Shown here: positions 13,172 to 25,292 of the stretch, one piece after another
Position numbering within the stretch: position 1 is the first letter of the stretch
How the letters are laid out: every line of letters begins with the position of its first letter
Source: Actinopolyspora halophila DSM 43834
GTDB lineage: Bacteria > Actinomycetota > Actinomycetes > Mycobacteriales > Pseudonocardiaceae
Assembly: GCF_000371785.1 (NCBI RefSeq)
Contig: NZ_AQUI01000002.1
Coordinates: 1,467,276-1,531,275, forward strand
Length of the DNA: 64,000 bases
Direction of reading: 5' to 3'
Translations under genes and position numbers: made by a program
Notes under the pieces: generated by a model
Databases searched by the model: none
What the model saw: the letters and a program-made list of their open reading frames with translations, nothing else
Told to the model about the DNA's origin: nothing

Positions 13172-13460
13172 CGTCCGTGCGCTGAACCACTTCAGCCGGT
13201 CACCTCGGGCCATTCGTGGGTGTAGGTTCGGCCTCCGGCCGCGCGAGCTGGTCACTGTCCAGTTCGCCCCCATCCCGGCCAGGGCTGCGGGAGGCCGATG
13301 CCTGCTTCCGTCCGCCTCGTAGGCGCGGTGCCGTCGGTTGGCCGCCGTCACCGATACGTACCTGGCTCCTACCGCAGGCGCTCCTCGGTGGCCACATCAC
13401 CGCTGTCGGGCTGCCTCATTCCCCGGGACATGTTTCCCAGCGCTGCGCTGCCCTCGGGTT

Positions 13461-14072
13461 TCAGTACCACATTTGGTTTTTGACACCGGCGAGAGATTCC
13501 CACAGGTGTACTTCGCTGCCGTTCTGGCCGATGTTGTTGAGGTTCGCGTCCAGGTACTGGCCGCTGTGCACGCTGCTGATCCGAAAACTCCCTCCGGAGG
13601 ACTCCTCGAGTTTCCACTGCTGATTCTTGACGCCGGCGAGGGGCTCCCACAGGTGTACTTCGCTGCCGTTCTGGCCGATGTTGTTGAGGTTCGCGTCCAG
13701 ATGCTGGCCGCTGTAGTGGTTGATGAATCGGCGATACCCGTTGTCGGTGGTTTCCGACCACCACCACTGGTTGGTGTTTCCGTCCGTGCAGGTCCACAGC
13801 TGGACTTTCGTTCCGTTCTCACCGATCGTGTTGAGATCCGCGTCCAGGCAGAAGTCGTTGTAGGAACTGGCGATGAAGAAGGGCCCTTCGGCTCCATCCG
13901 GGATGTGGGGTGGTCTTGCCGCCCGCGATTGCGCTCCGGAAGCCGGACGTAATGTCAAGCCTGTTTCGTCCGAGGAGGTTCGGGCAGCGGCGGTGAAGTT
14001 AGGCGTCGCACACAACGCGAATACCGACATCGCCATGATGACAGTTCCGAGGGAACGGTGTGTTTTGCTCAT
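13461..14072 (-). CDS. Secreted ricin B-type lectin (CBM13-like)
   Basis: 203 residues from an ATG with AGGAG upstream. An N-terminal signal peptide (about 1-29, with VIMAMSVFALCATPNFTAAA) is followed by a linker, then three QxW-type repeats over about residues 65-203. Each has a D-A-N/D-L-N core (CLDADLNTIGENG, HLDANLNNIGQNG, YLDANLNNIGQNG) and a closing NQWWW, NQQWK or NQMWY. The repeats show a near-duplicated DNA stretch (13480-13553 and 13627-13700). No enzyme domain is attached, so it is probably a free extracellular carbohydrate binder. It is divergent from the RHS toxin gene, with a 272-nt shared control region. Confidence 0.85.
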   Translation of the reverse strand: MSKTHRSLGTVIMAMSVFALCATPNFTAAARTSSDETGLTLRPASGAQSRAARPPHIPDGAEGPFFIASSYNDFCLDADLNTIGENGTKVQLWTCTDGNTNQWWWSETTDNGYRRFINHYSGQHLDANLNNIGQNGSEVHLWEPLAGVKNQQWKLEESSGGSFRISSVHSGQYLDANLNNIGQNGSEVHLWESLAGVKNQMWY

Positions 14073-14344
14073 CGCATCTCCTTGTTGGTCACACGATCGC
14101 GTCGAACCTAGCGAGTGGGAGGACTCGCGCCAAGAAAAAATTTCGTGACAAATCGCATGCGGGTGTGCTGACGATTGTTGCAAACCTTTGTGGTCCATAT
14201 GGACGTATTTGCGGTCGAATAGTTTCAACCGTTGTATCGGGCTTTCGGATCCCCTAGCCTCCTTCGGCGGCGTGGAGAGATCGTGGTTGTTTCTCCGGTG
14301 GTCTCCGCGCGGACTGTTTCTCGTTTTCCTCACTGGGGGATGTC
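14073..14344. promoter_or_regulatory. Divergent control region of the lectin and RHS genes
   Basis: This AT-richer region has no gene. It contains the perfect 12-bp palindrome GTCCATATGGAC (14193-14204), about 120 nt from the lectin start and 140 nt from the RHS start. It is a good candidate for a shared operator. No regulator is encoded next to it. The palindrome is read directly; the role is inference. Confidence 0.45.
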
Positions 14345-17300
14345 ATGCCCGACGCACCGGCTGTGCGTATCGGAACGCGGCGCGGCACGGTGATCCTGAC
14401 GCTGTTGGTGTCCTGGACACTGCTGGTCTCGCTGGTCACCATCCCGACTCGAGCTGTCGCGGCCGAACCTCCTCGTGAGGATGCGGCCGAGTCGAGCACG
14501 TCGCGGACTCCGTTCACCTCGCTGTCGCACCACGGTTTGTCCCCGGACCAGCGGGCCCCGACCGAACCGTTCACCAAGCCAGGCCATCGAGACCGACAGC
14601 GGGCAGCACAGCCTCGTGTTCGCTCCGGTACGTCCGCGGCTGCAGGTAGCGGCGCCACCGATGTGCATCTGGCCCCGGGAACGCTGACCGGCAAGCTCTC
14701 GATGCGCCTGTACTTCAACCTGCCGGACACCGACTACGCCAAGATGTACTTCGATCTGCTGGACGAGTCCGGGCAATCGGTTGATCGCTGGTACGTCCAG
14801 TTCTTCCCCGAAGACCTGACGAAGCTGCGCTGCGGTGTACGCACGGCCTACTGCTACACCTTCAGTCCGTCATTGGGGGCAACTCCGCCACCGATCGAGG
14901 CCGGGCAGCAGTACAAGATCCGCCTCTCGGTCTCCTACGACCCGAAGCAGCCCGCTGTTGAGACACTGTCCAACGTCGCCTCACCGAGGCGTCTACCGGT
15001 GCCTCCGAAGCCTGAGTTCGGACACGGTCAGGGATGCTCCGCCGGAACGAGCCTGGGGTGCACATCGGTGCTCAACGGGTTGCGGGGCGACCCGGTCAAC
15101 ACGGCGACGGGGGCGTACAACCTCAACCGCACGGATCTCACGCTGCCCGGTTTCGGAGAGACCTTCGCCGCGGAGCGCACCTATGTTTCCTCGGACACCC
15201 GCGGCGGTGCGCTCGGGCCCGGGTGGAACTGGTCCTACGACATGCGCCTGTCTCCGCTGCCGAACGAACCGCGAGTGATCCTCCGTGCCGAGGACGGTTC
15301 GGAGGCGACGTTTCGGCGCTATCTGAGCGGCTATCGGGCACCACCGGGGGTGCGGACCCAGCTGTTCGCCAGGGACGGTGGAGGCTTCCGCGCGGTGACC
15401 CCGGATCAGCGCGAGCTGTTGTTCGCCGCCGACGGTCGCCTGCTGTCGATTCACGACCAACGGGGTCAAGGTCTCGAGTTCGGTTACGACGGCGGGAGTC
15501 TGCGCACCGTCACCGATGCGGCGGGCCGAACCGTCCGCGTCGAGCACCATTCGAACGGGCGCCTGGCCAAGCTCACCCTGCCCGACGAGCGGTACGTCTC
15601 CTACAGCTACGACTCCGAGGGCAGGTTGTCGGAGGTCCGCGACGCGGAGGGTGGGACCACCACCTACGGATACGATTCCGCCGATCGCCTGACCACCGTC
15701 ACCGATCCCGCGGGACGTGTCGTGGTCACCAACGTCTACGACCCGGACTCGGGCCGCATCGTCGAACAGCGCGACGGCAACGGGGCGAGCACCACTTACG
15801 CGTGGGATCAGGAAAAGCAGGAAGCCACCATCACCGGCCCGGACGGGCGCAAGAGCTACGACGGGTACCGCAACGGTGTACTGCAGTATCAGGAGAACGG
15901 AAACGGCGACCGCACGCTGTATCGCTTCGACGAGGATCTCGAGTCGAGCCTGGTCGTCGATCCGCTGGGACGCCAATACCGCATGGCCCACGACTCGTCG
16001 GGCAATCTCACTTCGGTCGGCGCGCCCGAATCCGGGTTGAACGTCACCGCGAAATACGACACGCACAACAACCCGACGTCACGGAGCAACGAGACCGGCG
16101 ACGTCGTCGAGCAGCGGTTCAACGACTACGGCGAACGCACGACGGTGACAGCCGCCGACGGAACCCAGCGGCGCTTCACCTATGACGACCGCGGACTGCT
16201 CACCTCGGTGACCGACGAACGCGGCGATGTGACGCGGTACGAGTACGACGCGGCGGGCAATCGCGTCGCCGAGATCAGTCCACTCGGCAACCGCACCACC
16301 TTCGGATACGACAGCACCGGGAACATGATCTGGTCGGTCGGCCCGCGCGGCAACGTCGAGGGGGCGGATCCGAGCGAGTTCCGGACCACCTACGAGTACG
16401 ACGCGTTGGACCGGCTGCGTAGCGTCACCGATCCACGCGGGAACAAGCGGACGATCTCCTACGACGGTTCCGGCAATCGAACTTCCACGACCGACGCGGC
16501 CGGAAACACCACCCACTACGAGTACGACGACGCGAGCCGCCCGGTCAGCACGACCGATCCGCTGGATCGCACCAGCACGTACACCTACACACCGGGTGGG
16601 CTGCTGAAGTCGAAGACGAATCCGGCCGGAGAACGCACCAGCTACACCTACAACGCCGCCGGACTGCGGAAAAGCGTGACCACACCGCGCGGCAACGTTT
16701 CCGGGGCGGACTCCGTCCGGTTCACCACCACGTTCGAGTACGACTTCAACGGCAACCGCACGGCGATACATCGGCCCGCAGTCGGGGGTGGCACGAACAC
16801 GACCCGGACCACCTACGACGCGCTGGACCGGCCGGTCTCCGTGACCGACCCACTGGGCAACACCCGCGAGATCGAGTACGACGAGGCGGGCAATGTCACC
16901 GCGCGGATCGATGAGCTGGACAACGTCACCCGCTACGACTACGACGAGAAGAATCGACTGCTCAGCGTGACCGACCCGCGCGGTGCGGTCACCGAGTACG
17001 AGTACGACGTCGCGGGCAACCGCACCGCCACGATCAGCCCGCTGGGCACGAAACGCACGTGGACCTACGACGCCGACGGCCGCAAGACGAGCTCGGTCAG
17101 CGAACGCGGACACGCGGACGGTGCCGACCCGAGCAGGTTCACCACCCGATACTCCTACGACGCCGCGGGCAACCTCGTCAGCACCACCGATCCGCGCGGA
17201 AATTCCACCGAGCGCAGCTACGACGCCACGAACCTGCTGACCAGTCGCACCGACGCCAACGGCAACACGGTTCGATTCGGCTATGACGAGTCGAATCGAC

Positions 17301-19582
17301 TGGTCAGCGTACTGGGAAGCGATGCGGACAAGCCCGAGCAGGCGACTCGTCACGAGTACAACGCGGCCGGGGAACGCACGGCTCGCGTCGACCCGAACGG
17401 GAATCGCACCACATTCGCCTACGACGCGGCCGGACGGCTGATCGAACGCACCGACCCGCTCGGACGTTCCCGTACCTTCGACTACGACGCCAACGGAAAC
17501 CGGACGAAGATCGTCACTGCTCGGGGCAATGCGGCAGGGCAGCCCGGTGGTGCCGCCACCGAGGCAGCCGGCACCATCACCAACCGCTACGACCTGCACG
17601 GGCGTCTGGTCCGCAGTCAGCTCGGTGAGAACGGTCCGGTCCACACCCGGAGTTACGACGCGGCAGGCAGGCGGATCGGTACCTCCGATCCACGGGGGAG
17701 TTCCACCTACACCTACGACGCGGCGGACCGGCTGACTTCGGCGGTGCGCAACGGCGAGGCCTTCGAGTACGGTTACGACTCGAGTGACAACGTCACCCGA
17801 CGCAGCTTGCCCGACGGATCCACGGTCGAGGCCACGTTCGACGAGAACGGTCGTATGGTCAGCCAGACCACCGACGGTGGTACCACGAACTACGGTTACG
17901 ACACGTCGGGGAATCTCACCAGCATCCAGTACCCCGACACCACCGGTCACGTCGAGAAACGTTCCTACGACCGGCTCGGTCGCATCACCAGCGTCGGAAC
18001 GAGCAACCAGGACACACCGCTGGCGCGGTTCCGACTCACCCGCGACCCGGTCGGCAACCCGACAGAGATCGTGACCAACCGAAAAGGCACCAGCACCACC
18101 GCGAGCTACGACTACGACTCCGCGAACCGTGTGACGGCGGCCTGCTACGGCACCACCACGTGCACCGGAGCCGAGCACGCGGTGCGCTACGAGTACGACC
18201 TCCTCGGAAACAGGGTCACGGAAAACCGCACCGGCCTGGAGAACCCGGGCGAGTTCAACTACAACTACGACGCCGCCAACCAGCTCACCTCACGTGCCGG
18301 ACCGGACAAGACGACCGAATTCGGCTACGACGCCGATGGCAACCAGGTCCGCGCGGGTGAGTCCACCTACGAGTACGACCTCCGCGACCGGATGACGAGC
18401 GCGACCGTCGCCGGGACAACCACGGAGCTGTCCTACGACGCGCTCGGCAATCGCATCGCCGCCACCAGGGGAAGCGAGACCACGACCTCGCGGTGGGACA
18501 TCAACAATCCGCTGCCGCGGTTGGCGGTGCAGTTCCGTCCGGACGGCAGCCCCGATCGCAGTTACCGCGCCGGGCCCGGCGGCACTCCCGTGATGACCCG
18601 CACGGGCACCACGAACCAGTACTACGCCCACGACTGGATCGGCAGCGTCCGGGACGTCTTCTCCCAACAGGGCGAACAGCAGTACTCCTACGACTACGAA
18701 CCGTTCGGCAGCACACGAAACACCCAACAGCACGCCGAATCAGCACCCTCGAACCCGCTGCGTTTCACCGGCGCGTACCGCGACGACACGCTGGGGCTCC
18801 ACAACCTGCGGGACCGGCAGTACCGCGCGGAAACGGGACGGTTCACCAGCACCGACCCGGCGACACCACGTGCCGACGAGCCGCACACCTCGACCTACGC
18901 CTACGCCGCCGACCGGCCGGGCGTCGCCGTCGACCCCAGCGGCAGGTGCTGGTGGATCCCGGGGAGCGGAGAAAGCTCGTGTCCCGGTTCCGAGGCGCTG
19001 TCCGGGGTCGGAGAAGGACTCCATGCCGTCGGGTCCGCGACACTACGCGGTCTGCAGCAACCCGTGGAGGCCTTCCGCTCGACAGCGGATTCCTGCGACC
19101 GCGGCAACCGACAACTTCCGATCCTCGGCTGCGTCTACAACACCACCGGGGTCACGGCTTTCTGGGACCAGCTGGGCTCGGCACACCTGGCCAAGCAGAC
19201 CGACGACCGCTTCAGTCACCTCACCCAGGCGGCCATCGCCCTCGGTACACTCGGCAGAAATTCGCTGGGCGGACCAAGCGATGCTCCGGGAGTCAGTGGG
19301 CTCCCGCTAAAACTAGATAAATATAAGCTTGACAGGGATCATAATTTCCCCGCTATAGTCGATAATCACGCAAAAACGGGTAGTCATTTCAAGGTCGAAA
19401 GCAAAAGAGAGGGAGGTGTTTTTTCTCATTACTCGGATCTATATCAACTGGAAGGGGAACTTGACGGCAAGTCAGGTGTATTTGAATGGGTGGTCGATCA
19501 TGGCGCTGTGACACACAGAAGGTTTATTCCGAGAGTAGGAATAACGGGAGAAGCAAATCAGGTACCCGGGAATAAACGATGA
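14345..19582 (+). CDS. RHS/YD-repeat polymorphic toxin
   Basis: 1,745 residues. A signal-like N-terminus (about 12-40, VILTLLVSWTLLVSLVTIPTR) suggests Sec export. A DUF6531-like start of the RHS shell is near residue 247 (GDPVNTATGAYNLNRTDLTLPG); then dozens of YD repeats (YDAAGN, YEYD, GNRT) run to about 1460. The RHS core ends at about 1473-1530 with RFTGAYRDDTLGLHNLRDRQYR and VAVDPSGR, after which the toxin domain begins. The last ~95 residues (from about 1651) abruptly change to AT-rich codons and include SHFKVESKREGGV and SGVFEWVVDHGAVTHRRFIP. I cannot assign the tip to a named toxin family. The stop overlaps the first immunity gene. The role inferred is contact or secreted toxicity toward competitors. 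Confidence 0.9.
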   Translation: MPDAPAVRIGTRRGTVILTLLVSWTLLVSLVTIPTRAVAAEPPREDAAESSTSRTPFTSLSHHGLSPDQRAPTEPFTKPGHRDRQRAAQPRVRSGTSAAAGSGATDVHLAPGTLTGKLSMRLYFNLPDTDYAKMYFDLLDESGQSVDRWYVQFFPEDLTKLRCGVRTAYCYTFSPSLGATPPPIEAGQQYKIRLSVSYDPKQPAVETLSNVASPRRLPVPPKPEFGHGQGCSAGTSLGCTSVLNGLRGDPVNTATGAYNLNRTDLTLPGFGETFAAERTYVSSDTRGGALGPGWNWSYDMRLSPLPNEPRVILRAEDGSEATFRRYLSGYRAPPGVRTQLFARDGGGFRAVTPDQRELLFAADGRLLSIHDQRGQGLEFGYDGGSLRTVTDAAGRTVRVEHHSNGRLAKLTLPDERYVSYSYDSEGRLSEVRDAEGGTTTYGYDSADRLTTVTDPAGRVVVTNVYDPDSGRIVEQRDGNGASTTYAWDQEKQEATITGPDGRKSYDGYRNGVLQYQENGNGDRTLYRFDEDLESSLVVDPLGRQYRMAHDSSGNLTSVGAPESGLNVTAKYDTHNNPTSRSNETGDVVEQRFNDYGERTTVTAADGTQRRFTYDDRGLLTSVTDERGDVTRYEYDAAGNRVAEISPLGNRTTFGYDSTGNMIWSVGPRGNVEGADPSEFRTTYEYDALDRLRSVTDPRGNKRTISYDGSGNRTSTTDAAGNTTHYEYDDASRPVSTTDPLDRTSTYTYTPGGLLKSKTNPAGERTSYTYNAAGLRKSVTTPRGNVSGADSVRFTTTFEYDFNGNRTAIHRPAVGGGTNTTRTTYDALDRPVSVTDPLGNTREIEYDEAGNVTARIDELDNVTRYDYDEKNRLLSVTDPRGAVTEYEYDVAGNRTATISPLGTKRTWTYDADGRKTSSVSERGHADGADPSRFTTRYSYDAAGNLVSTTDPRGNSTERSYDATNLLTSRTDANGNTVRFGYDESNRLVSVLGSDADKPEQATRHEYNAAGERTARVDPNGNRTTFAYDAAGRLIERTDPLGRSRTFDYDANGNRTKIVTARGNAAGQPGGAATEAAGTITNRYDLHGRLVRSQLGENGPVHTRSYDAAGRRIGTSDPRGSSTYTYDAADRLTSAVRNGEAFEYGYDSSDNVTRRSLPDGSTVEATFDENGRMVSQTTDGGTTNYGYDTSGNLTSIQYPDTTGHVEKRSYDRLGRITSVGTSNQDTPLARFRLTRDPVGNPTEIVTNRKGTSTTASYDYDSANRVTAACYGTTTCTGAEHAVRYEYDLLGNRVTENRTGLENPGEFNYNYDAANQLTSRAGPDKTTEFGYDADGNQVRAGESTYEYDLRDRMTSATVAGTTTELSYDALGNRIAATRGSETTTSRWDINNPLPRLAVQFRPDGSPDRSYRAGPGGTPVMTRTGTTNQYYAHDWIGSVRDVFSQQGEQQYSYDYEPFGSTRNTQQHAESAPSNPLRFTGAYRDDTLGLHNLRDRQYRAETGRFTSTDPATPRADEPHTSTYAYAADRPGVAVDPSGRCWWIPGSGESSCPGSEALSGVGEGLHAVGSATLRGLQQPVEAFRSTADSCDRGNRQLPILGCVYNTTGVTAFWDQLGSAHLAKQTDDRFSHLTQAAIALGTLGRNSLGGPSDAPGVSGLPLKLDKYKLDRDHNFPAIVDNHAKTGSHFKVESKREGGVFSHYSDLYQLEGELDGKSGVFEWVVDHGAVTHRRFIPRVGITGEANQVPGNKR

Positions 19583-20091
19583 GAGAATTTCAGGTGCTGC
19601 GGAGTTTGGGATTGGCATCTTGGGCGGTTCTCCGATACGGGATCGAACATGATTGGATAGGAGTTGATGCCGTAGTAGATTACGCAGCCGATGTCCTCGC
19701 GGAAGAGCGTGATGCCGCCGACGACCGTGCGGTGCGGCTAGCAGTTTACGACTTCGAAGGGAAGGAGGGAATGCTCGACCTTTGTAGCCAGTTGGAAAAA
19801 CTGGATAGCGAAAAATCGGACCCAGAAAAAATACTAAAGGCGTGGATTTTGGCGCATCTTATTGATATCGACGAGAAAACCGATTCAGATGAGAAGCAGA
19901 ATGAAATTAACGATATTTACGGAACTTTAGGGTCTCCGAGGGAGAGGTTTTTTTGTGGGTCACACTATCTATACGCAATAAATCACTATACCGGAGAAAT
20001 GATATCGGTTCGAAAAACACATCCTTCCTGGGAGTTTAGAAAATTGATAAACGACCTATCCGAAGAGTTGTCCGTCAGGAGGGATTGTTGA
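19579..20091 (+). CDS. Cognate immunity protein of the RHS toxin (copy 1)
   Basis: 170 residues. Its ATG overlaps the toxin stop by 4 nt, the arrangement expected of a cognate immunity gene. The N-terminal part (EFQVLRSLGLASWAVLRYG, YAADVLAEER, DDRAVRLAVYDFEG) is conserved in two further copies downstream. The middle and C-terminal part (after about residue 70) is highly divergent. The pattern resembles DUF2247-type immunity proteins, from memory and without a search. No signal peptide or membrane segment, so it should act in the cytoplasm. Base composition matches the toxin tip, not the housekeeping genes. Confidence 0.75.
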   Translation: MREFQVLRSLGLASWAVLRYGIEHDWIGVDAVVDYAADVLAEERDAADDRAVRLAVYDFEGKEGMLDLCSQLEKLDSEKSDPEKILKAWILAHLIDIDEKTDSDEKQNEINDIYGTLGSPRERFFCGSHYLYAINHYTGEMISVRKTHPSWEFRKLINDLSEELSVRRDC

Positions 20092-20103
20092 AGGTGAACT
20101 CGC

Positions 20104-20595
20104 GTGGTGGGTGCGTCGGCGGTGTTGTGTAGGGGGCTCGTTGAGACTCTGGTTGGGTGTGTCTCCTCCTTGATCGAGTATTATGAGATCCGCCCCGGCA
20201 AGAAAGTTCCGGATGTCAACGACGCGTTGCGGGTTCTGCCGAACAATGATCTGGAGTGGAGGCTGCTCGAGGTGGAGGGACCTGGTGACCCGTTTCAAGG
20301 GAGGTCTGTCGGTGAACTCGGAGAGTCGGCGTTTTCCTCTCCGTCGGGTACCGGATTGTCGTGGAACGAAGTGAAGGAACTTTCCGGGGGCATGGTGCAG
20401 GCTATCAACATTTTGTTCGTCGCCTTCGACCTTTGGAAGTTTCCGGCACTTGAATCCGCACTATCGTCCGGACGATACGACGATTGCGAGTTTTTGGCCG
20501 AAGTTTTCGACAGCACTTACCTGCGTCTCGGTGTGAATCAACAGCGTGCTGACTACGACAAAATCGTGTCCAGGTTCCTGGGACTCGACCTCTGA
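20104..20595 (+). CDS. Hypothetical protein, probable immunity-type (copy 1)
   Basis: 163 residues from GTG (20104; a second GTG follows at 20107). I do not recognise the family. It is soluble, with the stretches EYYEIRPGKKVPDVNDALRV, LEWRLLEVEGPGDPF and a C-terminal half NILFVAFDLWKFPALESALSS. It lies 12 nt after the first immunity gene and moves with the immunity genes in the tandem duplication, so an immunity or accessory role is inferred. The second copy is frameshifted, and a third is reduced to a start fragment. Confidence 0.6.
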   Translation: MVGASAVLCRGLVETLVGCVSSLIEYYEIRPGKKVPDVNDALRVLPNNDLEWRLLEVEGPGDPFQGRSVGELGESAFSSPSGTGLSWNEVKELSGGMVQAINILFVAFDLWKFPALESALSSGRYDDCEFLAEVFDSTYLRLGVNQQRADYDKIVSRFLGLDL

Positions 20596-21058
20596 GGGCT
20601 TGTTCTGGAACTGAGACCGGGGATGGGTGGCGTCACTGAGGTAGCTGAGCTCGCCGATGGTGCCGGGCTAGTTCAGGTGCAGGAGGATAAGATGGCTCCC
20701 ATAGCGGCACGGACCTGTGAGGCGTAGAGGGACTGTGGCCCTGCCCTCCGAGAGGCGTTGGATGTCTCGGCGCCGGAAAAGGATCCTAAATCGGTTTCGG
20801 CAGGGGAGTTCGAGCAGGGTATCCTTCGAACACATTGACCGGCGCGATTGGCGGTACCCGTACAACTGTGGGGGACCATAAACATGGTATCGCCGTCCCC
20901 GAAAACGCCCTCATCGATGGACTCCGCATCGCCGGAACCATCGTAGCACCGGAAGCAGGGCCCTCGCTTCACGTGCGCTCCTTCTCGCCCGAAGGAGTAG
21001 TGGACTGGAACGGCCCCAGAAACACGCGACCAGTACACCTTCGGGAAGTAGGAAAACA
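20596..21058 (+). other. Spacer with displaced coding remnant (copy 1)
   Basis: No intact gene. The last 228 nt (20835-21062) form an open frame that ends in KQ with its TGA overlapping the GTG of the next immunity gene, exactly as the RHS toxin overlaps its immunity gene. It contains HGIAVPENALIDGLRIAG and SPEGVVDWNGPRNTRPVHL. I read it as the left-over C-terminal tip of a former toxin, not a complete gene. The upstream half is degenerate and differs from copy 2 by small indels, as expected for non-coding or decaying sequence. Confidence 0.5.
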
Positions 21059-21475
21059 GTGAGCTGGCTCGACCTCGTCGACAACACGACGGAACTCGAA
21101 AAGCTGTACGCGGGATATGTTCCCAGTATTTCAGGAGTACATCTGGTAGGGGTGAACCTGTACCACAATAACTCTTTTTCCGTCTTCGGTTTCTCCTTGC
21201 CCGACTTCCCTCCTGATCCTCCGGAAAAATGGAAGAGCAGCGAAGTCAATGTTGTTCAACTGAACATGAAGTTATCGGGTGTTTTTGGCTTTTCCATGAG
21301 GGGATGGGAGGACTCCGGATTCGCTGATCTCCAAATAGCGAGACTGGACGAGGGAGTTCGTGTCACGGTCGAGTCAGAGTCCATCGAGTTGGATGTGACG
21401 GCGAACAGGGCCAGGATAAATTCGTTCGCCGGTTACATTGTAAACCCCGAAAGAGAAAAATACAGAAACTGTTGA
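21059..21475 (+). CDS. Imm50 family immunity protein (a, copy 1)
   Basis: 138 residues from a GTG. The opening SWLDLVDNTTELEKLYAGYVPSISGVHLVGV and LPDFPPDPPEKW match what I know of Imm50 (polymorphic toxin immunity). The remainder alternates short strands (VVQLNMKLSGV, FSMRGWEDSG, VTVESESIELDV). It is cytoplasmic. The second copy at 23429 encodes an identical protein, so the duplication is recent. Its cognate toxin is not in the window apart from the remnant overlapping its start. Confidence 0.8.
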   Translation: MSWLDLVDNTTELEKLYAGYVPSISGVHLVGVNLYHNNSFSVFGFSLPDFPPDPPEKWKSSEVNVVQLNMKLSGVFGFSMRGWEDSGFADLQIARLDEGVRVTVESESIELDVTANRARINSFAGYIVNPEREKYRNC

Positions 21476-21502
21476 ACAACGGGTTTCGAAGGGTGGAAAA
21501 CA

Positions 21503-21925
21503 GTGAGCTGGGTTGACCTCGTCGACAGTACAGAAGGGGTCCGGGCCATATACGGTTACCATGCTCCCCGGTTGGGAGGAGCGTGGGTCGACGAGATTTA
21601 CCTCAAATACGGAAGAAACAGTGTCGATCTCAGATTCGACATAACGGATCTGCCCGCCACGATGCCGAAAAAGTGGGCACAACGGGGAGCTGACACCGTC
21701 CACCTTCATATCACTTTCTCCGATGTCGAGAGTCTCGTTATCCGAGGGCAGAGCAGCAGAAAAGTTATCGATCTCGGAATAGACCCTCTGGAGGGAAGCA
21801 TCCTGGTCACGGCACGATCGGATCATTTCGAGCTGGACATGAGGGCGGAAAGAGCGCTGCTGCAGCGGATAACGGCTCACCGGGGTGGACCTTTCAATCG
21901 TAAAAAACCATTGAGGAACAGATGA
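21503..21925 (+). CDS. Imm50 family immunity protein (b, copy 1)
   Basis: 140 residues from a GTG with GGGTGG upstream. The first residues SWVDLVDSTEGVRAIYGYHAP, and LPATMPKKW, align with the preceding Imm50 protein, so the two are diverged paralogues. The C-terminus is basic (FNRKKPLRNR). The gene lies 27 nt after its paralogue and its stop overlaps the next immunity gene by 4 nt. Copy 2 at 23873 differs by one residue in the stretch near EGSILV (Ser versus Arg). Confidence 0.78.
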   Translation: MSWVDLVDSTEGVRAIYGYHAPRLGGAWVDEIYLKYGRNSVDLRFDITDLPATMPKKWAQRGADTVHLHITFSDVESLVIRGQSSRKVIDLGIDPLEGSILVTARSDHFELDMRAERALLQRITAHRGGPFNRKKPLRNR

Positions 21926-22461
21926 AGGAATTTCAAGTACTGCGAAGTTTGGGGTTGGCATCCTGGGCGGCGCTCCGATATGGGTTGGAGGAGAATTGGG
22001 TATCGTTTGAGGATGTATCGACTTACGCAGCCGATGTTCTCGCGGAAGAGCGAGAGGATGCCGACGATCGCGCAGTGCGGTTGGCGGTGTATGACTTCGA
22101 AGGAAAGGAGGAATCCCTCGACCTCTGTAGTCAATTGGAAAAAATGAAAAATGAGAACGAATGTCCAGGAAAAATACTTAAAAAATGGATCTTAGCAAAA
22201 CTTATTGCTATCGATAGAAATTGGGGTGATCCAGAAGAAAAAGCATCTGAGCTCGACGTAAATTACGCGATGCTGGGGTATCAAGAGGAGATGCTTTTGG
22301 ATCATCAAGAGAGGGTGAACTTCCACAGTTCATGCAATACCTACGGAACTGGTCACTACAACGAAGTGATTTTGTCCGTTGATATGGCTTCACCTCTCGA
22401 TGAAGCCAGAAGGTTGATAAACGAGTTGTCCGAAGAGTTGTCCGTCAGGAGGGATTGTTGA
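21922..22461 (+). CDS. DUF2247-like immunity protein (copy 2)
   Basis: 179 residues. It has the same conserved N-terminus as copies 1 and 3 (EFQVLRSLGLASWAALRYG, VLAEEREDADDRAVRLAVYDFEG). Residues about 70-165 are replaced by unrelated-looking sequence (KMKNENECPGKILKKWILAKL, YQEEMLLDHQERV), and the last residues (INELSEELSVRRDC) match copy 1. Such mosaicism suggests recombination that swaps the specificity part. Starts within the stop of the preceding Imm50 gene. Confidence 0.72.
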   Translation: MKEFQVLRSLGLASWAALRYGLEENWVSFEDVSTYAADVLAEEREDADDRAVRLAVYDFEGKEESLDLCSQLEKMKNENECPGKILKKWILAKLIAIDRNWGDPEEKASELDVNYAMLGYQEEMLLDHQERVNFHSSCNTYGTGHYNEVILSVDMASPLDEARRLINELSEELSVRRDC

Positions 22462-22473
22462 AGATGAAGTCGA

Positions 22474-22966
22474 GTGGTGGGTGCGTCGGCGGTGTTGTGT
22501 AGGGGGCTCGTTGAGACTCTGGTCGGGTGTGTGTCGTCCTTGATTGAGTATTATGAGATCCGCCCCGGCAAGAAAGTTCCGGATGTCAACGACGCGTTGC
22601 GGGTTCTGCCGAACAATGATCTGGAGTGGAGGCTGCTCGAGGTGGAGGGACCTGGTGACCCGTTTCAGGGGAGGTCTGTCGGTGAACTCGGAGAGTCGGC
22701 GTTTTCCTCTCCGTCGGGTACCGGATTGTCGTGGAACGAAGTGAAGGAACTTTCCGGGGGGCATGGTGCAGGCTATCAACATCTTATTCGTCGCCTTCGA
22801 CCTTTGGAAGTTTCCGGCACTTGAATCCGCACTATCGTCCGGACGATACGACGATTGCGAGTTTTTGGTCGAAGTTTTCGACAGCACTTACCTGTGTCTC
22901 GGTGCGAATCAACAGCGTGCCGACTACGACAAAATCGTGTCCGGGTTCCTGGGACTCGACCTCTGA
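22474..22966 (+). pseudogene. Frameshifted copy 2 of the hypothetical immunity-type gene
   Basis: It matches the gene at 20104 almost base for base. It carries six G (22756-22761) where copy 1 has five (20386-20390), so the frame shifts and the protein stops at 22824. The downstream part stays readable in another frame (MVQAINILFVAFDLWKF from 22763 to 22966). Either a pseudogene or a slippage-prone G run; a sequencing error in the homopolymer cannot be excluded. Confidence 0.75.
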
Positions 22967-23428
22967 GAGCTTGTTCTGGAACTGAGACCGGGGGGTGGGG
23001 TGGCGTCACTGAGGTAGCTGAGCTCGCCGATGGTGCCGGGCTAGCTCAGGTGCAGGAGGATAAGATGGCTCCATAGCGGCACGGACCTGTGAGGCGTAGA
23101 GGGACTGTGGCCCTGTCCTCCGAGAGGCGTTGGGTGTCTCGGCGCGGGAAAGGACCCTGAATCAGTCTTGCAGGGGAGTCCGAGCAGGGTATCCTTCGAA
23201 CACATTGACCGGCGCGATTGGCGGTACCCGTACAACTGTGGGGGACCATAAACATGGTATCGCCGTCCCCGAAAACGCCCTCATCGATGGACTCCGCATC
23301 GCCGGAACCATCGTAGCACCGGAAGCAGGGCCCTCGCTTCACGTGCGCTCCTTCTCGCCCGAAGGAGTAGTGGACTGGAACGGCCCCAGAAACACGCGAC
23401 CAGTACACCTTCGGGAAGTAGGAAAACA
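22967..23428 (+). other. Spacer with displaced coding remnant (copy 2)
   Basis: Second copy of the spacer at 20596-21058. The remnant frame reaches 23432 and again overlaps the next Imm50 GTG; it is unchanged from the ATTGACCGGCG region (about 23202) onward. In this copy the frame is open further upstream to a TTG at 23130, but the upstream part is not conserved with copy 1, which argues against a real longer gene. Confidence 0.5.
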
Positions 23429-23845
23429 GTGAGCTGGCTCGACCTCGTCGACAACACGACGGAACTCGAAAAGCTGTACGCGGGATATGTTCCCAGTATT
23501 TCAGGAGTACATCTGGTAGGGGTGAACCTGTACCACAATAACTCTTTTTCCGTCTTCGGTTTCTCCTTGCCCGACTTCCCTCCTGATCCTCCGGAAAAAT
23601 GGAAGAGCAGCGAAGTCAATGTTGTTCAACTGAACATGAAGTTATCGGGTGTTTTTGGCTTTTCCATGAGGGGATGGGAGGACTCCGGATTCGCTGATCT
23701 CCAAATAGCGAGACTGGACGAGGGAGTTCGTGTCACGGTCGAGTCAGAGTCCATCGAGTTGGATGTGACGGCGAACAGGGCCAGGATAAATTCGTTCGCC
23801 GGTTACATTGTAAACCCCGAAAGAGAAAAATACAGAAACTGTTGA
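23429..23845 (+). CDS. Imm50 family immunity protein (a, copy 2)
   Basis: 138 residues, identical in protein sequence to the product at 21059. It retains the GTG start overlapping the remnant frame and the same downstream Imm50b neighbour. Exact identity across 417 nt implies a very recent duplication or gene conversion. Confidence 0.8.
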   Translation: MSWLDLVDNTTELEKLYAGYVPSISGVHLVGVNLYHNNSFSVFGFSLPDFPPDPPEKWKSSEVNVVQLNMKLSGVFGFSMRGWEDSGFADLQIARLDEGVRVTVESESIELDVTANRARINSFAGYIVNPEREKYRNC

Positions 23846-23872
23846 ACAACGGGTTTCGAAGGGTGGAAAACA

Positions 23873-24295
23873 GTGAGCTGGGTTGACCTCGTCGACAGTA
23901 CAGAAGGGGTCCGGGCCATATACGGTTACCATGCTCCCCGGTTGGGAGGAGCGTGGGTCGACGAGATTTACCTCAAATACGGAAGAAACAGTGTCGATCT
24001 CAGATTCGACATAACGGATCTGCCCGCCACGATGCCGAAAAAGTGGGCACAACGGGGAGCTGACACCGTCCACCTTCATATCACTTTCTCCGATGTCGAG
24101 AGTCTCGTTATCCGAGGGCAGAGCAGCAGAAAAGTTATCGATCTCGGAATTGATCCTCTGGAGGGAAGAATCCTGGTCACGGCACGATCGGATCATTTCG
24201 AGCTGGACATGAGGGCGGAAAGAGCGCTGCTGCAGCGGATAACGGCTCACCGGGGTGGACCTTTCAATCGTAAAAAACCATTGAGGAACAGATGA
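23873..24295 (+). CDS. Imm50 family immunity protein (b, copy 2)
   Basis: 140 residues, the same as the protein at 21503 except Arg for Ser in LEGRILV. The stop again overlaps the following immunity gene by 4 nt. Confidence 0.78.
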   Translation: MSWVDLVDSTEGVRAIYGYHAPRLGGAWVDEIYLKYGRNSVDLRFDITDLPATMPKKWAQRGADTVHLHITFSDVESLVIRGQSSRKVIDLGIDPLEGRILVTARSDHFELDMRAERALLQRITAHRGGPFNRKKPLRNR

Positions 24296-24804
24296 AGGAA
24301 TTTCAAGTACTGCGAAGTTTGGGGTTGGCATCCTGGGCGGCGCTCCGATATGGGTTGGAGGAGAATTGGGTATCGTTTGAGGATGTATCGACTTACGCAG
24401 CCGATGTTCTCGCGGAAGAGCGGGAGGATGCCGATGATCGCGCAGTGCGGTTGGCGGTTTACGACTTTGAAGGGAAGGAGGAAGCCCTCGACCTCTGTAG
24501 TCAGCTGGGAAAACTGAACAACGAGGATACAGATCCGGAAAAAATACTGAAGACGTGGATCCTGGTAAGGCTCACCGCTATCGAGGAAAATTGGGAGGAC
24601 TCGGAAGAGAAAATAGATAAAATTGGTGAAGCTTACGCGAGTTTGGAATACCCGGAAGAGATGTGCTTTTGCAGTAGGTACGGTACATACAAAACTGACA
24701 ATACCGGACAGATTCTATCTGTTCGTATGGGGCCTCCCCTCTATGAATCCAGAAGGTTGATAAACGAGTTGTCCGAGGAGTTGGCCGCGGTAAGGAATCA
24801 GTGA
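24292..24804 (+). CDS. DUF2247-like immunity protein (copy 3)
   Basis: 170 residues. The first ~64 residues are identical to copy 2. The middle differs (LGKLNNEDTDPEKILKTWILV, ASLEYPEEMCFCSRYGTYK) and is closer in layout to copy 1. The end is ELSEELAAVRNQ in place of SVRRDC. It closes the array; beyond it the repeat breaks off. Confidence 0.72.
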   Translation: MKEFQVLRSLGLASWAALRYGLEENWVSFEDVSTYAADVLAEEREDADDRAVRLAVYDFEGKEEALDLCSQLGKLNNEDTDPEKILKTWILVRLTAIEENWEDSEEKIDKIGEAYASLEYPEEMCFCSRYGTYKTDNTGQILSVRMGPPLYESRRLINELSEELAAVRNQ

Positions 24805-25292
24805 CGACGCCTCCGAGTGGTGGGTGCGTCAGCGGTGTTGCGCAGGAGTCCGTAGACATCTGAGGCCCGCAACGGCGTGGGCAGCGAGGCACCCGAAGAC
24901 GGACTGTCGTCCTCGGCCCCGGCTGCAGGCGGCGCGGAACGGCCGCAGCACCGGATCCGTGCCGGAACACCGTCAGCCCACGAGACTCCTCGCCGACTCC
25001 TCGTGTCCCTGGTCGGCCCGCAGCGACCGGGACCCCAGCGACGGACAGACCCGCGGAGCGAGCCGGCTCGCGGAGCACGTCGAGCGCGGCAGCACGGCTG
25101 ACGGGCCGAGCAGGAGTGAGGGGCCCCGAAGCAGCAGTGCCGCACCGCCGTGCCTGGTTGTCGTGGCCCGGCGGCGGAGGAGTGCGGTCGTCCCGTCCGG
25201 GCAGAGCTCCCCACGCGTTCCGCGTTCCGCATGTCGAATGGTTATCCTCGTTCGGGTATGGGTCGCAGACCGTGGCCACCGAGAGGAGCGAT
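24805..25292 (+). other. Array end: truncated third repeat start, then no recognisable gene
   Basis: Right after copy 3, nucleotides 24811-24849 repeat the start of the hypothetical gene (GTGGTGGGTGCGTC, GCGGTGTTG) and then diverge to an early stop. This is a remnant of a third unit. The remaining ~440 nt before rsfS is GC-rich and has no frame with coding character on either strand. It marks the return from the AT-rich island to the core. Confidence 0.5.

Follow-up and report, generated by a model that had tools for sequence, protein, structure and literature searches.

A composite tandem repeat of predicted immunity genes behind an RHS toxin gene in Actinopolyspora halophila

Why would a bacterium carry a whole series of predicted antidote genes behind a single polymorphic toxin gene, and how did the series form? 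The question is raised by a locus of Actinopolyspora halophila DSM 43834, which we analysed in a window of 64,000 nucleotides (nt) (NCBI RefSeq assembly GCF_000371785.1, contig NZ_AQUI01000002.1, positions 1,467,276 to 1,531,275 of the forward strand; coordinates below are those of the window). An initial annotation had described a tandem immunity array behind one RHS toxin, and this is borne out by the repeat itself and by Pfam matches to DUF2247 and Imm50. The repeat is real: two units follow the RHS gene, and they are too divergent for a plain assembly duplicate. We read the locus as an RHS polymorphic-toxin gene with an immunity array in which the first DUF2247 gene (A1) would be cognate and the rest orphan, a block having probably been duplicated in tandem and then reshaped by homologous exchange. 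We assign this reading a probability of roughly 0.75.

Two composite units in tandem

The toxin gene and the array comprise the following features, in which hyp denotes a hypothetical gene, x a small open reading frame (ORF) and aa amino acids.

14345..19582, plus strand: RHS protein of 1745 aa with DUF6531, YD repeats, Rhs-associated core and variable tip (Pfam and NCBIfam matches)
19313..19579, plus strand: toxin tip, Ntox19-like, predicted nuclease (relatives, alignment and the motif list of PMC3482391)
19579..20091, plus strand: DUF2247/Imm38 copy 1 (A1), start overlapping the toxin stop; PF10004, 35.9 bits (cut-off 25); likely cognate immunity gene
20104..20595, plus strand: hyp copy 1, 163 aa, open frame; probable immunity protein of an unnamed family, from relatives behind another tip
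20835..21062, plus strand: ORF x copy 1, 75 aa, stop overlapping the Imm50a start; possible tip remnant by position only
21059..21475, plus strand: Imm50a copy 1; PF15594, 52.6 bits (cut-off 27.1)
21503..21925, plus strand: Imm50b copy 1; PF15594, 44.4 bits; 29% identical to Imm50a
21922..22461, plus strand: DUF2247/Imm38 copy 2 (A2); PF10004, 34.2 bits; mosaic with A3-like head, A1-like tail and its own core
22474..22966, plus strand: hyp copy 2, frameshifted; ORFs 22474-22824 and 22763-22966, two partial matches
23130..23432, plus strand: ORF x copy 2, a longer open frame of 100 aa (ORF list)
23429..23845, plus strand: Imm50a copy 2, identical to copy 1
23873..24295, plus strand: Imm50b copy 2, differing from copy 1 in one residue
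24292..24804, plus strand: DUF2247/Imm38 copy 3 (A3); PF10004, 49.4 bits
24805..24846, plus strand: remnant of the hyp 5' region behind A3; repeat family D5 (74%), with 24751-24846 matching at 72% over 96 nt

The array genes share one orientation and are separated by small gaps, the widest within a unit being the stretch that separates hyp from x, which measures about 240 nt in unit 1. Between units, the starts of four genes are offset by 2,370 nt (hyp 20104/22474, Imm50a 21059/23429, Imm50b 21503/23873, DUF2247 21922/24292). The exact 2,370-bp periodicity reported initially therefore holds for these starts but not inside the unit, where the offset drifts to 2,371-2,373 from about 20,385 to 20,799 and the indels cancel. 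The cassette had also been taken to begin at hyp, which is one gene too late and omits A1. Our preferred phasing is DUF2247, hyp, x, Imm50a and Imm50b, giving two full units followed by a third DUF2247 gene and the first bases of a third hyp. A1 lies directly behind the toxin gene, and the spacing of the three DUF2247 genes is 2,343 nt from A1 to A2 and 2,370 nt from A2 to A3.

Used as a 2.4-kb query against the window, the first block, with its DUF2247 core included, recovered itself and one further full-length match at 93%. It also gave short matches to A1 and downstream of A3, as well as two weak matches at other positions. Because 2.4 kb aligns at 93%, a chance repeat is excluded. Tandem Repeats Finder listed nothing at the array, the longest period in its output being 500. 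The Imm50a copies are identical in DNA and protein, as first annotated, within an identical stretch from 20811 to 21780, and the Imm50b copies differ by 3 nt and one residue; all four Imm50 frames are open.

That identical stretch of 970 bp is what an assembly artefact might leave, with one unit in the cell and two in the record. The units are nevertheless separated by 33 substitutions and indels in the hyp stretch and by strong DUF2247 divergence, which makes an artefactual duplicate highly improbable; an assembly of two contigs that is 99.75% complete argues in the same direction. An extra unit may have been collapsed in the assembly.

The toxin tip and the partners of the immunity genes

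The RHS protein was recognised as a polymorphic toxin by its RHS_repeat match (E 2.5e-149) and by TIGR03696 (58.9 bits, cut-off 32.5). Its N-terminus is hydrophobic and, by eye, signal-peptide-like. Zhang et al. (2012, PMC3482391) give D, H, DxxxR, E and HxxF as the features of Ntox19, with a predicted BECR fold. Four of the five (D, H, E and HxxF) are present by eye in the alignment of the tip. By the same inspection, DxxxR occurs in the tip relatives L038, L039, L040 and L048, is absent from L042 and is lacking in the window, and for this reason we call the tip only Ntox19-like. Its family membership suggests a nuclease. A relative of the tip was detected in the RHS protein of locus L069 and is not carried by those of L064, L065 and L067.

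A consistent partner emerged when the tip was searched by tblastn against a plasmid collection, which yielded six records. A DUF2247 gene stands directly behind the tip in all five of the loci examined. It is annotated as such in Deinococcus and Duffyella (the Duffyella toxin being annotated as a hemagglutinin-repeat protein), and was found by a custom profile (E 1.7e-15 or better) in Photobacterium, where the toxin is similar by eye, in Rhizobium, where the tip frame is short, and in Nocardia. In the sixth record, from Neisseria, the match coordinates alone place tip and DUF2247 matches next to each other on one strand. A genome survey with Pfam DUF2247 picked out 2 of 297 genomes in the family sample and 3 of 374 in the class sample, both counts including the present one, and 14 control genomes gave a single match below the cut-off. 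Two of the three other DUF2247 genomes have a tip directly upstream (L047 and L048), that of L048 ending an RHS protein. Other loci lack the tip: on an Enterobacter plasmid, from a group of four similar records, DUF2247 follows RHS and barstar genes with no tip, and in L014 (3.4 kb, L014:1-3408; another genus of the family) DUF2247 lies among small genes with no recognisable tip. L014 is possibly another orphan immunity island.

The accessible text of Zhang et al. equates Imm38 with DUF2247 and lists Imm38 and Imm40 as immunity partners of Ntox19 (PMC3482391). This listing and the tip-DUF2247 pairing elsewhere indicate that A1 is likely the cognate immunity gene. All three DUF2247 copies exceed the Pfam cut-off, and only A1 occupies the position behind the tip. 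The division into one cognate and many non-cognate immunity proteins made by the initial annotation is thus retained in a weaker form, with one likely cognate gene and several likely non-cognate ones. No experimental test of an Imm38-Ntox19 pair was met in the literature on these families, which was covered in part for Ntox19.

The other genes point to other toxins. At another locus of a second genome of the genus (L064:1-11000), an RHS gene with an Endonuclea_NS_2 tip is followed by a SUKH immunity gene and then by an Imm50-Imm50 pair in the order seen here, 38% identical to Imm50a and 39% to Imm50b. A Streptomyces plasmid carries two Imm50 genes behind a Tox-HNH-EHHH tip, and Imm50 is listed with Tox-HHH and Ntox24 in the available part of PMC3482391. 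In genomes G026 and G141, a relative of hyp directly follows a toxin tip that the two genomes share and that differs from the present one; in G141 this tip ends an RHS protein. Of 160 genomes of the order, 4 gave an Imm50 match and 4 a hyp match, the present genome being counted each time. Since their relatives sit behind other toxins, hyp and the Imm50 genes are most likely orphan immunity genes here.

In L066:5880-6595 and L067:6993-7708, a toxin tip with the motif FTDH..HP.PHQ (by eye) adjoins an immunity gene of the hyp family; these tips and both hyp relatives fall below the Pfam cut-offs, and the tips match no NCBIfam model. No such tip was found within 5 kb on each side of the hyp relatives at two Embleya loci. 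A hyp match in L061 (E 9e-4) was discounted as probably fortuitous, its frame reading by eye like low-complexity antisense.

Neither hyp nor x matched a Pfam family. ORF x also gave no match in NCBIfam, PDB, the plasmid collection or PHROGs (genome collections were not searched), and among the compared loci it matched only its own two copies. A single-sequence structure model was unreliable, with a predicted local distance difference test score (pLDDT) of 41.5. The proposal that each unit keeps a toxin-tip remnant consequently finds no backing in any family, PDB chain or plasmid record; the position of x is all that suggests a tip.

Further searches added little. In NCBIfam, neither the tip nor x nor any of the immunity genes passed a cut-off, A3 having two weak DnaJ matches; in PHROGs the RHS protein alone was matched. 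Sequence searches of PDB returned nothing convincing for hyp, x, the DUF2247 profile or the tip, the last used both as a sequence and as a profile (best E 0.14), nor did an Imm38 profile find a convincing solved relative (best E 0.16), and a DUF2247 structure prediction from three rows reached a pLDDT of 41.6. Scans of genome contigs with DUF2247 and with the tip found no relative, this genome itself possibly lying outside that collection, and neither did a scan of viral contigs with the tip profile. PADLOC returned nothing for the seven proteins scanned, and a reading of the locus as a defence system was dropped on that account. An anti-CRISPR role for DUF2247 is raised in one paper (PMC11566119), whose authors, in the part available, also give the Imm38 reading; nothing in this analysis favours it.

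The array might alternatively act by dosage, all three DUF2247 proteins neutralising the resident tip and the extra copies raising the dose of immunity. Three open paralogues that are mutually 60-73% identical would suit such a backup, and tandem copies could be co-transcribed. The cores, however, are only 33-48% identical (alignment columns 100-155), which would suit different specificities, and Imm50 and hyp accompany other toxins elsewhere. We therefore consider dosage unlikely.

Recombination between the units

The two units are not of one age throughout. Over the hyp stretch (20038-20810), they differ by 33 substitutions in 773 nt, and over the next 1,242 nt by 3. At the hyp-stretch rate 53 substitutions would be expected there, and a uniform-rate binomial gives P(<=3) of about 9e-20. 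Because sites of every kind are identical in this 1.24-kb tract, we prefer recent exchange to selection as its cause. Exchange appears to have occurred more than once, since the tract is near-identical while its neighbour has diverged by 4%.

The DUF2247 genes are mosaic. According to the initial annotation, the last gene changes its middle section between copies; the first ~44 codons of A3 and A2 are indeed kept before the two diverge, but three such genes exist, the first having been left out of the cassette. We aligned the genes with 36 nt downstream and compared splits and runs with 1,000 site shuffles, which ignore selection and codon structure. A2 and A3 share a run of 131 identical nt and split best into parts of 97% and 67% identity, neither value being reached in 1,000 shuffles. 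A1 and A2 show the converse pattern, with 66% identity over most of the gene, 96% in the tail and an identical run of 35 nt; again, none of 1,000 shuffles reached either. A1 and A3 have no comparable run, theirs being reached in 447 of 1,000 shuffles, and their split is weaker (1 of 1,000). Homology blocks thus flank variable regions in mosaic paralogues, as in esaG arrays.

The core of A2 resembles neither A1 nor A3, and synonymous divergence (dS) there is beyond reliable estimation. If A1 and A3 had simply crossed over unequally, a two-part hybrid would have resulted, and such an event is ruled out as a sufficient explanation; the A2 core must therefore be older or imported. Of the growth by unequal recombination proposed initially, signs of recombination between the units are clear, but duplication or crossover alone does not suffice.

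Overall, the DUF2247 genes show replacement divergence (dN) of 0.18-0.29 and dS of 0.6-1.4, and all three frames are open. Between the hyp copies there are 8 synonymous and 4 replacement differences, besides the frameshift in copy 2. These values point to constraint, then some decay, in DUF2247 and hyp. Neutral duplication in decay, by which the extra units would have no present role, could account for the frameshifted hyp copy 2, the hyp remnant behind A3 and the unrecognisable x. All three DUF2247 and all four Imm50 frames have stayed open, however, and replacement changes look few in hyp and DUF2247, as judged without a formal neutrality test; we regard decay as a doubtful explanation.

Sequential displacement without duplication, as proposed for Vibrio cholerae type VI secretion system (T6SS) and Rhs loci, would have each new tip-immunity module push older immunity genes downstream. 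It would fit the unrelated immunity families in one array, the near-saturated divergence of the DUF2247 cores, the ties of Imm50 pairs and hyp to other tips elsewhere, and the low guanine-plus-cytosine (GC) content of the tip and array (0.47-0.60 in windows, against 0.64-0.71 in the RHS core and towards the flanking gene rsfS). Independent modules would not be expected, however, to repeat a block of about 2 kb (hyp, x, Imm50a and Imm50b in the same order) at 96-100%. The paralogues thus include the products of local duplication, and displacement as the whole explanation is quite unlikely. Displacement probably supplied the parts, which duplication and recombination then shaped.

In the reading that we favour, A1 would neutralise the Ntox19-like tip and so protect the producer and its siblings. 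The orphan set would consist of A2 and A3, both copies of hyp (of which the second is broken) and the four Imm50 genes, whose products may bind the tips of competitors or of earlier versions of the resident toxin. The block duplicated in tandem would have been DUF2247-tail, hyp, x, Imm50a, Imm50b and DUF2247-head. The copies would then have swapped sequence by homologous recombination, the near-identical stretches serving as homology blocks and the DUF2247 cores staying distinct, and at least the A2 core would predate the duplication or have come from outside. A more tentative extension, which we think possible at rather poor odds, is that the composite multi-family unit works as one recombination cassette. 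In that case hyp-x-Imm50a-Imm50b and the flanking DUF2247 ends would be long homology arms through which only DUF2247 specificity cores are added or swapped, so that immunity to successive variants of one tip is stored and the unrelated immunity genes are carried along.

The island, the balance of evidence and known systems

The locus occupies an island, for which the following features were recorded.

13173..25193 (about), strand not assigned: 12-kb island between nadD and rsfS (blastn against nine other genus loci)
13192..13230, minus strand: scrap of a tyrosine-integrase C-terminus, about 12 codons, read by eye
13464..14333, minus strand: protein with a ricin-B-type lectin domain at the island's left (RicinB_lectin_2, E 2.2e-18), with internal 147-nt repeats

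In all nine other genomes of the genus that were compared, nadD and rsfS are neighbours with collinear flanks (blastn) and the 12-kb island is absent from the site. In seven of these genomes 67-270 bp separate the two genes; in the remaining two, 1.2 or 1.9 kb of other sequence lies between them. No match to A3 was found anywhere in these nine genomes. Locus L029 keeps a longer integrase piece (Phage_integrase, E 1.4e-11), and in L031 the nadD 3' end recurs beyond the insert as a 68-bp copy at 98.5%. Because of the integrase remnants, the duplicated nadD end in L031 and the different inserts of two genomes, the nadD-rsfS junction (13173; L029, L031, L035) looks like an integration site in the genus.

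Several observations weigh against the favoured reading. The last ~90 residues of the RHS protein matched no Pfam or NCBIfam model and lack the DxxxR motif, so that the toxin may be of a different or weaker sort. Searches for the tip in samples of the order (1 of 397) and the phylum (1 of 396) gave a single hit, which was this genome each time. DUF2247 also occurs with no tip nearby, in L014 and L043. The broken hyp copy fits decay as well as storage, all four hyp replacements lie behind the frameshift, and both recombination and the saturation of dS confound dN/dS. The array turned up in none of the other genomes searched, and neither growth nor shrinkage of it was observed. Low GC extends beyond the tip and array to the lectin stretch (0.56-0.63).

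If the reading is right, the tandem-paralogue recombination described for single immunity genes of Firmicutes would extend to a multi-gene unit in a high-GC RHS locus. Its three natural Imm38 variants, alike at the ends and different in the core, would offer ready material for studying the way in which immunity specificity is encoded. The array, which as far as sequence comparison can tell is real and largely explained, could be used as a natural experiment on immunity specificity.

The nearest known case is that of the esaG and tipC arrays (Garrett et al. 2022, PMC9484751); this paper and those below are compared through the portions of their text available to us. The esaG and tipC arrays likewise contain tandem immunity paralogues, shared blocks around variable regions and mosaics, and expand by recombination between blocks. 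Their repeat, however, is a single gene with a spacer, linked to type VII secretion system toxins of Firmicutes, whereas here a multi-family unit follows an RHS toxin in a high-GC bacterium. Copy-number change between isolates was observed there and not here.

Polyimmunity loci (Zhang et al. 2012, PMC3482391) resemble the array in their several immunity families, single orientation and small gaps. Toxin cassettes are said never to interrupt them, whereas this array immediately follows a toxin gene and includes ORF x, which matched no family. In the portion of that text available, none of the words "unequal", "gene conversion" and "duplications" is used. The T6SS arrays of Vibrio cholerae (Kirchberger et al. 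2017, PMC5361080) also store orphan immunity genes behind an active effector, but their authors argue against gene duplication, while block duplication is evident here. Orphan cdiA-CT/cdiI and Rhs modules (Poole et al. 2011, PMC3150448) share the placement of orphan immunity behind a polymorphic toxin and Rhs delivery, and recombination after tandem duplication has been suggested as a model for them (PMC3150448). They mostly retain recognisable toxin fragments, whereas a tip remnant is not demonstrable here.

Polyimmunity loci, orphan modules of contact-dependent growth inhibition (CDI) and Rhs systems, displacement arrays and tandem-paralogue recombination are thus already in print (PMC3482391, PMC3150448, PMC5361080 and PMC9484751, respectively, in the parts available). 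The present locus is best placed with them as a polyimmunity locus with esaG-like recombination, and its less common feature is the composite unit, in which a single repeat combines several antidote families.

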